Made by a program: the position numbers and the translations under genes. DNA of 64,000 nt, from assembly GCA_937872175.1 (NCBI GenBank), contig CALMPI010000042.1:1-64000 (forward strand), given 5' to 3'. Below, in pieces: positions 20,667 through 24,974 of the stretch. Position 1 is the stretch's first letter. Each line of letters begins with the position of its first letter. The notes below the pieces were generated by a model, which was not told the DNA's origin, did no database searches, and saw only the letters and a program-made list of their open reading frames with translations. The DNA is from an uncultured Flavobacteriales bacterium (GTDB taxonomy: Bacteria > Bacteroidota > Bacteroidia > Flavobacteriales_F > PHOS-HE28).

Positions 20667-21914
20667 ATGCTGTACCACCTGTTCAAGGCCATCGGTTTCG
20701 CCCTCCCCGGCAGCGGGGCCTTCAACTACATCTCCTTCCGCGCGGGCATGGCCGTCTTCGTGTCGCTGGTCATCAGTCTGTGGTTCGGCAAGGGCATCAT
20801 CCGGTTGTTGCGCCGCATGCAGGTGGGAGAAACGGTGCGCGACCTGGGCCTCGAGGGCCAGATGGGGAAGCAGGGCACCCCGACCATGGGCGGGCTCATC
20901 ATCCTCTCGGCCATCCTGGTCCCCACCCTGCTGTTCGCCCGCCTGGACAACATCTACATCCTGCTGATGCTGTCCGTCACCGTCTGGCTCGGTGTCATCG
21001 GCTTCATCGATGACTTCATCAAGGTCTTCAAGAAGGACAAGCGCGGGTTGGCGGGCAAGTTCAAGGTGGTCGGGCAGATCGGCATCGGCATCATCGTCGG
21101 TGCGGTGGTCTATTTCCACCCGTCCATCCGCACCAAGGTGGAGGTGCCCCCGGTGCTCGCCGAGCAGCTCGATCCCGCCGCGCTCAGCACGTTCGTGGAG
21201 GAGGACGGCACGGTGCATCACCTGCTGGACCGCAAGAGCCCGAACACGACCATCCCCTTCGTGAAGGGCAACGAGTTCAACTACTCCTCGGTGCTCGGCC
21301 TGTTCGGTCGGGAGGCGCGGCGCTACACCTGGGTGCTCTACATCCTGGTCGTCATCTTCATCATCACCGCGGTGAGCAACGGGGCCAACATCACCGACGG
21401 CCTGGACGGTCTGGCGACGGGCACATCGGCCATCATGGTGCTGGCGCTGGGCGTGCTGGCCTATGTGAGCGGCAACATCATCTTCTCGGAGTACCTGGAC
21501 ATCATGTACATCCCCGACAGCGGGGAGCTGGCCGTGTACATCGGTGCGATGCTCGGGGCGTGCATCGGCTTCCTCTGGTACAACGCCTATCCGGCGCAGG
21601 TCTTCATGGGCGACACCGGAAGCCTGGCGCTGGGAGGCATCATCGCCACGCTCGCCATCCTGGTGCGCAAGGAGCTGTTGATCCCCGTGCTGTGCGGGGT
21701 CTTCCTGGTGGAGAACCTCAGCGTGGTGATGCAGGTGTCCTGGTTCAAGTACACCAGGCGGAAGTACGGGGAGGGGCGAAGGATATTCCTGATGTCGCCC
21801 CTGCATCATCACTTCCAGAAGAAAGGCATCCACGAAAGCAAGATCGTGAGCCGGTTCTGGATCGTCGGCATCATGCTCGCCGTGTTGAGCATCGTCACCC
21901 TCAAGCTGCGATGA
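20667..21914 (+). CDS. mraY: Phospho-N-acetylmuramoyl-pentapeptide transferase
   Basis: 415 residues with about ten membrane helices. Diagnostic motifs are [13 protein letters not shown] (~70), [17 protein letters not shown] with the Asp pair (~112-128), [15 protein letters not shown] (~238-252) and [11 protein letters not shown] (~315). It transfers phospho-MurNAc-pentapeptide to undecaprenyl phosphate to make lipid I. It is longer than the ~360-residue E. coli enzyme because of a hydrophilic insertion at ~155-205 ([20 protein letters not shown]), which I regard as a Bacteroidota feature. It overlaps murD by 4 bp. murF, which usually lies upstream, is missing from this cluster. Confidence 0.96.
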
Positions 21915-23245
21915 GATCCATGGTGGTGCTCGGTGCGCAGGAGAGCGGGGTGGGCGCGGCGCTGCTGGCCCGCAAGCTCGGCCTGCCCGTGTTCGTCAGC
22001 GATGGCGGACCGATCAAGCCGCGCTACCGGGAGGTGCTCGTGGCCCACGACATCCCCTTCGAGGAGGGCGGTCATTCGGCCGCCCGCGTGCTGGCCGCGG
22101 ATGAGGTGGTGAAGAGCCCGGGCATCCCCGACTCCGCCGCGCTGGTCGCCGCTGCGCAGGAGCGTGGCATCCCGGTCATCAGCGAGGTGGAGCTCGCCGC
22201 CCGGCACACCACCGCGCCCATCGTGGCCATCACCGGCAGCAACGGAAAGACCACCACCACGCTGCTCACCCACCATATCCTCATGAAGGCCGGACTGGAC
22301 GCCGGCCTGGGCGGGAACGTCGGCCGCAGCTTCGCCGGCCTGGTCGCCGAGCGTGACCATGGCCTGTACGTGCTGGAGCTGAGCAGCTTCCAGCTCGACG
22401 GCATCCGCGCGCTGCGGCCGCACATCGCCGTCCTGCTCAACATCACTCCGGACCATCTGGACCGGTACGCATACCGGATGGAGAACTACGTCGCGAGCAA
22501 GTTCCGGATCGCGATGAACATGACCGGCGCGGACCACTTCATCCACAATGCCGACGATCCGGAGGTGGCACGCGGGCTTGACCTGCATGCGGTGCACGCG
22601 CAACGCTGGCCCTTCTCCATCGAACGTCCCGTTGACCGGGGCGGATGGCTCGACGATACGCACATCCACATCCACACCGACCAAAACCCGTTCCGCATGT
22701 CCATCCTCGAACTCGCCCTGCAGGGCAGGCACAACGTGTACAACTCGCTGGCGGCCGGCATCGCCGCGCGCATCCTTGACGTGCGCAGCGAGTCCCTGCG
22801 CGAGAGCCTGAGCGACTTCCAGAACGTGGAGCACCGCCTGGAGCGTGTCGCCACCGTGAACGGGGTCACCTTCATCAACGACTCGAAGGCCACCAACGTG
22901 AACAGTGCCTGGTACGCCCTGGAGAGCATGGACCGGCCTGTGATCTGGATCGCGGGCGGTGTGGACAAGGGCAACGACTACAGCACGCTGGTGCCGCTGG
23001 TGAAGCAGCGCGTGAAGGCCATCGTGTGCCTCGGCAAGGACAACGCCAAGGTCCATGCCGCCTTCGCTGGGGTGGTGCCCACGATCACCGACACCGACAG
23101 CGCCGAGGCCGCCGTGCATGCGGCCTACGGGCTGAGCGAGCCTGGCGACGCGGTGCTGCTCAGCCCGGCCTGCGCCAGCTTCGACCTGTTCGAGAACTAC
23201 GAGGAGCGCGGCCGCCGGTTCAAGGCCGCCGTCAAGTCCCTCTGA
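21911..23245 (+). CDS. murD: UDP-MurNAc-L-alanine:D-glutamate ligase
   Basis: 444 residues from the ATG in the ATGA overlap with mraY. The N-terminal Rossmann-like domain begins [21 protein letters not shown]. The P-loop [14 protein letters not shown] is at ~107-120, and the ligase domain has [23 protein letters not shown] (read in two parts, ~308-330) and a C-terminal [21 protein letters not shown]. It adds D-Glu to UDP-MurNAc-L-Ala. All domains are present and intact. A second copy of the C-terminal domain alone follows immediately, which is unusual. Confidence 0.96.
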
Positions 23246-23264
23246 TCACTTGAGCACCGATCCC

Positions 23265-23777
23265 ATGGACAAGGACACCCTGCACCTTCTGAACGCGCGC
23301 CAGGCCCGTGCCGGTCTGGTGGAGGCCCGTGCGAGCGCCTTGGGCGAGCTGTGGAGCGCACCGCACCGGATGGAGTTCGTCGGCACCGTGCGTGGCGTGG
23401 AGTACATCAACGACTCGCGCGCCACCTTCCTCGACGCGGCCCTGCAATCGCTCGCCTCCATCGAGAAACCCGTGCTGTGGATCACGGGCGAACTCCCGGA
23501 GGGGCTGCGTGAGGGGGGCGTGCTGGATCTCCTGCGTGACCGTGTGCGCGCGTTGATCCTCTGCACCCCTGGTGTGGACGACGTGCCCGACGGGTTGCGT
23601 GAAGCGCTCGGCCAGGCCTTCCTCGCCGGCGACGTACGCACGGCGGTCTTCCTGGCGCACGAGCTGGCGGCCAGTGGGGATGTGGTGCTCTTCAGCCCCG
23701 CCTGCCCCAGTGGCGGCGGGTTCGCCAACTACGAGGAACGTGGTCACGCCTTCAAACGCACCGTGCGCGAGCTCTAG
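23265..23777 (+). CDS. Stand-alone MurD C-terminal (ligase) domain paralogue
   Basis: 170 residues from the ATG at 23265 (a TTG at 23250 would add five). It aligns with the last ~145 residues of MurD. EFVGTVRGVEYINDSRATF matches [30 protein letters not shown] matches [12 protein letters not shown], and LFSPACPSGGGFANYEERG matches [18 protein letters not shown]. No P-loop or UDP-binding domain is present, so it cannot be a complete ligase. The frame is open and key positions are kept, which argues against a simple pseudogene. Lying between murD and ftsW, it is cotranscribed. It could be a regulatory or partner subunit of MurD. Function is unknown. Confidence 0.82.
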   Translation: MDKDTLHLLNARQARAGLVEARASALGELWSAPHRMEFVGTVRGVEYINDSRATFLDAALQSLASIEKPVLWITGELPEGLREGGVLDLLRDRVRALILCTPGVDDVPDGLREALGQAFLAGDVRTAVFLAHELAASGDVVLFSPACPSGGGFANYEERGHAFKRTVREL

Positions 23778-23786
23778 TCCCACGCC

Positions 23787-24974
23787 ATGAACCGCCTCTT
23801 CCACGAACACCTGCGCGGCGACCGCACCATCTGGATGGTGGCGCTGCTGCTCGGCGTGGTCAGCCTGCTGGCCGTGTACAGCTCGATCGCCTCCCTGGCG
23901 TTCAAGCAGGAGGGGCGCGGCACCCTGCACTTCCTCATGAAGCACGGCCTGATGCTGGCGAGCGGTGGGGCCATCATGTACGGGGCGCACCGGCTTCGCT
24001 TCGGGATCTATGGTCGCCTGTCGCAGTTGCTGCTCGGTGTCACCATCGGCCTGCTCGTGCTCACCCTGGTGCTGGGCACCAACCTGAACGATGCCAGCCG
24101 CTGGCTCCGCATCCCCATCATCGGCCAGAGCTTCCAGACCAGCGACCTGGCCAAGGTGGTGCTGATCGTGTTCGTGGCCCGGGTCATCGCCAGGCACAAG
24201 GACGCCCCGTGGACATTCCGCGACGTCGTGCTCAAGCTCCTGCTTCCCATCGGCGCGGTGTGCGGCACCATCCTTCCGGCGAACTTCAGCACCGCCGTGC
24301 TGCTCTTCACGGTGTGCATGACGGTGGCCTTCCTCGGCGGGGTGCCGCTGAAGTGGATCCTGGCATCGGTCGGGCTGACCCTTGGTGCCTTCGCCCTCCT
24401 GGTGGCCATCAACGAGGCCGGCGACCTGGGCCTTCTGCCACGTGTGGAGACCTGGCGTGCACGCCTCGAGAACCACGGTTCGGCCGATAGTGATGCCAAC
24501 TACCAGGTGGAGCACGCCAAGATCGCCATCGCCAGCGGTGGCCTGCTCCCCAACGGACCCGGCAGCGGAACCTCGCGCAACTTCCTTCCGCATCCCTACT
24601 CCGACATGATCTATGCGTTCATCATCGAGGAGTATGGCAGCCTGCTGGGTGGCCTTGGTCTGCTGCTGCTCTATCTGATCCTGATGGGCCGCGCCGTGAA
24701 GATCGCGCGCCTCTGCCCCAAGCCCTTCGGAGCCCTCACCGCGCTGGGCCTCAGCCTCAGCCTTGTGGTGCAGGCGCTGGTGAACATGGCCGTGGCCGTC
24801 AACCTCGTGCCCGTCACCGGGCAGCCATTGCCCCTGGTGAGCATGGGCGGCACCTCCATCTGGTTCACCAGCCTCATGATCGGCATCGTGCTCAGCGTGA
24901 GCCGGAGCGTGTACGACGAACCCGCGAACGACCATGTCCAACCCCAACCCCGCACCGCTCCGGCGGCCGCTTAG
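23787..24974 (+). CDS. ftsW: Septal peptidoglycan glycosyltransferase FtsW
   Basis: 395 residues of the SEDS family with about ten membrane helices. It shows LGVVSLLAVYSSIASLAF in the first helix, LGTNLNDASRWLRIP (~residues 93-107, the conserved N-x-A-x-R-W region) and FIIEEYGSLLGGLGLLLLYL (~276). The C-terminal part has NLVPVTGQPLPLVSMGGTS (read in two parts, ~335-354). FtsW polymerises lipid II at the septum with FtsI. The start is 9 bp after the MurD-like gene. It overlaps murG by 41 bp. Confidence 0.95.
   Translation: MNRLFHEHLRGDRTIWMVALLLGVVSLLAVYSSIASLAFKQEGRGTLHFLMKHGLMLASGGAIMYGAHRLRFGIYGRLSQLLLGVTIGLLVLTLVLGTNLNDASRWLRIPIIGQSFQTSDLAKVVLIVFVARVIARHKDAPWTFRDVVLKLLLPIGAVCGTILPANFSTAVLLFTVCMTVAFLGGVPLKWILASVGLTLGAFALLVAINEAGDLGLLPRVETWRARLENHGSADSDANYQVEHAKIAIASGGLLPNGPGSGTSRNFLPHPYSDMIYAFIIEEYGSLLGGLGLLLLYLILMGRAVKIARLCPKPFGALTALGLSLSLVVQALVNMAVAVNLVPVTGQPLPLVSMGGTSIWFTSLMIGIVLSVSRSVYDEPANDHVQPQPRTAPAAA

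Follow-up and report, generated by a model that had tools for sequence, protein, structure and literature searches.

The MurE-like subunit of the plastid RNA polymerase is a Mur-ligase homologue with a non-catalytic role. It forms part of a larger complex (8r6s chain Q, 8w9z chain N). In bacteria, the non-canonical homologue MurT pairs a Mur central domain with its partner GatD in the MurT/GatD amidotransferase, and the MurD2 of Xanthomonas, a full three-domain ligase, adds L-Glu while MurL epimerises; bacteria with this pathway do without D-Glu formation (PMC8788868). Regulation of MurD by a separate protein is known from Acinetobacter, where the GTPase MigC inhibits it (PMC12208494). Each of these bears a partial likeness to a gene in the dcw cluster of an uncultured Flavobacteriales bacterium, which we analysed within a 64,000-nucleotide stretch of DNA (the window) and which encodes a MurD C-terminal domain and nothing else.

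The protein shares its predicted fold with MurD (TIGR01087) and is 39% identical to the neighbouring MurD over the C-terminal domain, a resemblance far above chance at the sequence level, but it lacks the N-terminal and central domains and its stand-alone relatives have mostly lost ligand residues, the K348 equivalent among them. MurD2 has a homologous C-terminal domain, and Pro occupies E. coli position 414 in many stand-alone copies as it does in MurD2, but MurD2 is encoded by a separate gene alongside the stand-alone domain in one family (f72, below). The MurT C-domain is structurally similar (6gs2, Z 11.4), whereas the stand-alone gene has neither central domain nor GatD and is flanked by murD and ftsW. 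The plastid subunit is MurE-derived and belongs to a different, eukaryotic complex, and MigC is a COG0523 GTPase of unrelated fold. The domain is already known; the stand-alone gene is undescribed as far as the literature could be searched, with no description found in a search that covered few subscription journals. The dcw cluster is among the most studied of bacterial operons; an undescribed member of it, shared across at least 19 families of a single class, would add a new part to the apparatus of cell-wall synthesis or division in these bacteria.

The cluster runs murE, mraY, murD, the small ORF, ftsW, murG and murC, followed by further cell-division genes, those after murC being read from ORF translations as ftsQ, ftsA and ftsZ (Table 1). 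The ORF (23250–23777, forward strand) is intact and real. Its best start is the ATG at 23265, giving 170 residues; the alternative TTG at 23250 would give 175. We take the ATG as most likely because close relatives all open with MDKDTLHLL at that codon. The gene lies 19 bp 3′ of murD (19–34 bp in close relatives) and 9 bp 5′ of ftsW, short gaps from which we infer co-expression with both.

Table 1 Features of the stand-alone domain gene and its neighbours in the window.
Feature	Positions	Strand	Basis and remarks
mraY	20667..21914	+	In family f72 directly upstream of the stand-alone domain gene
murD, full-length, C-terminal domain intact	21911..23245	+	TIGR01087 407.6 bits; ATG overlaps mraY stop; stop 23243-23245
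Stand-alone MurD C-terminal domain gene	23265..23777	+	170 aa plus stop; ORF, PF02875, TIGR01087 C-terminal part only, start kept in relatives, AlphaFold2 model
N-terminal helix, residues 3-29	23271..23351	+	DSSP on the model; aligns with the MurD inter-domain helix preceding the C-terminal domain
NDSRAT motif (E. coli MurD N316-T321; K319 to R)	23409..23426	+	Alignment with E. coli MurD from the PDB
E. coli MurD K348 position (D-Glu site), here Glu79	23499..23501	+	K in 96/98 MurDs, 9/80 stand-alone copies
SPAC motif (E. coli MurD S410-C413)	23694..23705	+	Alignment
NYEERG motif (E. coli MurD N421-G426)	23727..23744	+	Alignment
ftsW	23787..24974	+	ATG 23787, 9 bp downstream of the stand-alone domain gene

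Mur_ligase_C (PF02875) is the sole Pfam domain above cut-off in the small ORF, matched over its full length (positions 1–127 of 127; 35.4 bits, cut-off 28.4). The NCBIfam murD model, TIGR01087, is matched only at profile positions 293–440 of 441 (E 2.7e-27), and the 96-bit score falls below the equivalog cut-off of 211.95 bits. Pfam reports neither the central ATPase domain (PF08245) nor the UDP-binding N-terminal domain in the 175-residue protein, and both are present in the neighbouring MurD. HRME, NDSRAT, SPAC and NYEERG motifs can all be read in the sequence. The first-pass annotation had described an intact, lone MurD C-terminal domain gene closely spaced between murD and ftsW, with NDS(K/R)AT and SPAC...NYEERG motifs and no ATP- or UDP-binding domain, and this description is confirmed.

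An AlphaFold2 model built from an alignment of 75 stand-alone copies has a mean pLDDT of 86, with lower confidence in the N-terminal helix, the counterpart of the helix at the end of the MurD central domain. MurD C-terminal domains rank first by both Foldseek and VIA-align, at Z 17–21 (best match 7ti7; Z 21.0, RMSD 2.1 over 137 residues), and the next non-MurD match is the Mpl domain 3mvn at Z 12.3. The predicted fold can therefore be assigned confidently as that of a MurD C-domain.

Numbering residues as in E. coli MurD, from the PDB alignment, we compared 98 Bacteroidia MurDs with 80 stand-alone copies. H301, R302, E304, N316, D317, S318, K319, A320, T321, N322 and S415 are invariant in all 98 MurDs, and K348 is present in 96. 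K348 is kept by only 9 of the 80 stand-alone copies (lost in 71), R302 by 41, K319 by 33 and N322 by 14, and T321 is also often lost. Largely retained are H301, E304, N316, S318, P411 and R425–G426, together with the fold core and the SPA motif. Among the D-Glu and ATP residues, the window copy keeps R302, D317, T321 and S415 and replaces K319 by Arg and K348 by Glu. Two substitutions are favoured in the stand-alone copies: Ser at window residue 62 (73%, family-weighted), an invariant Ala in MurD, and Phe at residue 143 (65%, family-weighted), where MurD has Leu. On these alignments the protein looks like a pseudo-ligase domain with a constraint of its own.

This residue pattern bears on three proposals. 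Competition for D-Glu, raised by the first-pass annotation, is unlikely: most copies have lost the K348 equivalent along with several others of the D-Glu/ATP residues. It is improbable, too, that the protein is a sensor that binds nucleotide, glutamate or UDP-MurNAc-peptide and signals to the division machinery how much precursor is available: the former ligand face (NDS loop, SPA motif and Ser 415) is among the best-conserved parts, but K348 is lost, K319, T321 and N322 often are, most f72 copies are missing the NYEERG loop, and the other domains of MurD also contribute to binding these ligands. A catalytic role, completing or replacing a Mur ligase active site in trans, is more doubtful still and seems very unlikely, given that 96 of the 98 MurDs have the full set of these residues and that most stand-alone copies are missing the K348 equivalent. 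What speaks for it comes from family f11, an exception whose copies retain catalytic-type residues, the K348 equivalent included, and in which one pair has a lower dN/dS for the stand-alone gene (0.01) than for murD (0.10). Because the f11 copies keep these residues, function may differ between lineages.

Of 34 related genomes in the window's genus, 32 have a match; the two others also show no murD, and both are incomplete assemblies. In every relative whose assembly contains murD the domain gene follows it, one copy being partly read as N (L049) and one truncated at a contig end (L051). A profile of the stand-alone copies cannot separate them from MurD by E-value, so we scored presence by locus anatomy. 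By this measure stand-alone copies occur in 19 sampled families of Bacteroidia, the class name following GTDB and being deduced from the named close relatives, which are Flavobacteriales MAGs (f1, f4, f5, f9, f11, f12, f20, f24, f27, f29, f31, f36, f40, f41, f43, f45, f54, f72 and f73). The order murD–domain–ftsW holds in nearly all fetched loci, with a median gap after murD of about 20 bp. The gene is present in only some members of f20, f40 and f5, and many Bacteroidia families are without it; it is therefore dispensable in general. About 190 genomes from other classes of the phylum yielded no stand-alone copy; nearly all have a single MurD-type match, and two have a second, weak one.

Across close pairs the stand-alone gene has a dN/dS of 0.01–0.43. 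Values among close relatives in the genus are 0.13–0.43 for the domain against 0.08–0.25 for murD; elsewhere the domain gives 0.03–0.05 in f4, 0.11 in f20 and 0.01 in f11. We used close pairs only: NG86 values between distant genus members climb to 0.5–1.1 and were left out, since at such high divergence, and with synonymous change probably compressed in these GC-rich genes, we do not consider them reliable. The close-pair rates all indicate purifying selection. The first-pass annotation had named frame loss and neutral rates as the marks of a decaying partial duplication; frames are intact, and close-pair dN/dS is well below 1. Decay of a functionless murD fragment has next to no chance as an account of the family as a whole, with intact frames retained in 19 families, conserved synteny and low rates, that of f72 (0.15) among them. 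In its favour are the many families without the gene and one genus sub-clade (L045, L049) with long branches and degenerate motifs, and decay could apply to single degenerate copies.

Family f72 amounts to a natural experiment in which the domain is uncoupled from catalysis by canonical MurD, and it opens the question of the domain's partner to direct testing. One f72 genome (G283) carries murE–mraY–domain–ftsW–murG–murC, with murD absent. The one MurD-type ligase in this genome forms the C-terminal half of an 876-residue protein and, like MurD2, carries Arg at the K348 position (GGMDRG). The N-terminal half of that protein is a match to MurL (NF041275; 257.8 bits, short of the cut-off, which was set for the Xanthomonas family). 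Matches to MurL and to MurD2, in one fused protein or as separate ones, occur in all 16 f72 genomes sampled; in each of them MurD2 is the only MurD-type ligase found, canonical MurD being absent. Glutamate racemase was found in none of the 16. The stand-alone domain is present in every one. Seven of eight fetched f72 loci are intact and read mraY–domain–ftsW; the eighth ends at a contig end. A comparison of two f72 species gives the domain a dN/dS of 0.153, close to the 0.168 of MurL–MurD2. The stand-alone domain is thus maintained where canonical MurD has gone, so a role purely as accessory subunit of that enzyme does not account for it. The first-pass suggestions of an accessory subunit or a competitor at the MurD interface become unlikely on the same ground, at least as an obligate function.

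Two f72 copies sat among the MurD rows in a free tree, so it is possible that the f72 domain is a relic of canonical MurD. Relic or not, selection in f72 preserves a lone MurD C-domain without its ligase. A quick tree split MurD from stand-alone rows at 69% support; in a more careful one (153 columns, long branches) the deep branches were unsettled. The likelihood improved when the stand-alone rows were constrained to group, whether f72 was included or not. The tree in which f72 joins the other stand-alone copies scored better, but with 153 columns and long branches this is a slight preference and no proof. With deep branches open yet constrained trees scoring better, a single origin is compatible with the data, short of proof. 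The gene probably arose once, from a murD duplication in Bacteroidia.

We favour, with a probability of roughly 45%, a reading in which the protein is a non-catalytic relative of the MurD C-domain that serves the precursor machinery near the membrane as an adaptor or regulator, and is neither a ligase nor an obligate subunit of canonical MurD. It draws on the predicted MurD-type fold, the disappearance of most catalytic residues, a constant position in the operon, purifying selection, and retention of the gene once MurL/MurD2 had taken the place of canonical MurD, and it is closest to the repurposed scaffold among the first-pass suggestions. Duplication of murD in Bacteroidia would have given rise to a non-catalytic C-domain relative, whose gene would have been retained in the dcw operon beside ftsW; the product would then serve as a small protein–protein adaptor or regulator of that machinery, which comprises MraY, MurG, FtsW and the glutamate-adding Mur ligase. 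Mur ligases form complexes in other bacteria, with MurG proposed as their scaffold (PMC6420597), a precedent for a role on the MraY/MurG/FtsW side. More tentatively, the gene may stand for a family, so far undescribed, of Mur ligase relatives that consist of a single non-catalytic domain, belong to the conserved content of the dcw operon in many Bacteroidia and have an MraY/FtsW-side role independent of MurD catalysis, for example as an adaptor coupling precursor synthesis to septal peptidoglycan synthesis.

The main rival is a dedicated regulator of MurD or MurD2, docking on the ligase's central domain, in place of or beside its own C-domain, and tuning the open-to-closed cycle. Adjacency to murD across a short gap in almost all families fits such a regulator, as does retention of the hinge residues H301 and E304; Arg302 in the same hinge governs how the C-domain of the E. 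coli enzyme rotates (PMC4816537), but roughly half of the copies have lost it. MigC shows that a protein inhibitor of MurD exists in another phylum (PMC12208494). Set against these are the f72 loci, which keep the domain without canonical MurD, and an f41 genome (G074) in which murD lies on a separate contig and the domain gene still stands directly 5′ of the ftsW reading frame. A fused MurD-plus-domain sequence, made by reading through 24 in-frame loci with stop codons rendered as Gly solely for modelling, gave an AlphaFold2 model with a pTM of only 0.60, in which MurD retains its own C-domain in the closed state. A dedicated MurD regulator is on balance doubtful, and an adaptor or regulator on the membrane-proximal side is the reading we prefer.

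Several further observations concern the loci themselves. In an f73 genome (G310), two stand-alone MurD C-domain genes lie in tandem between murD and ftsW (L102:2064–3138, forward strand). Extra, more degenerate stand-alone copies occur outside the dcw cluster in one f4 and one f41 genome (G037 and G074; L050:3383–3922, forward strand, and a reverse-strand ORF of 206 residues on L134). At the f11 loci L035, L058, L059, L062, L110 and L112, the C-domain of MurD is unusually divergent. The MurDs of L004 and L005 read GGEEHG, with His at the K348 equivalent where other MurDs have Lys, and dN/dS of their C-terminal part is raised (0.39–0.50 against the window, L002 and L003). We considered trans-complementation of a defective MurD and rejected it: the MurD of carriers is complete, and the stand-alone copies of L004 and L005 do not supply the missing K348 equivalent. 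Among 44 genomes, MurL was found in f72 only, where the MurL plus MurD2 set (L138:3264–5894, reverse strand) extends over 12 genera and is fused in several of them; in a review, the pathway is listed for Gamma- and Alphaproteobacteria and actinobacteria only.
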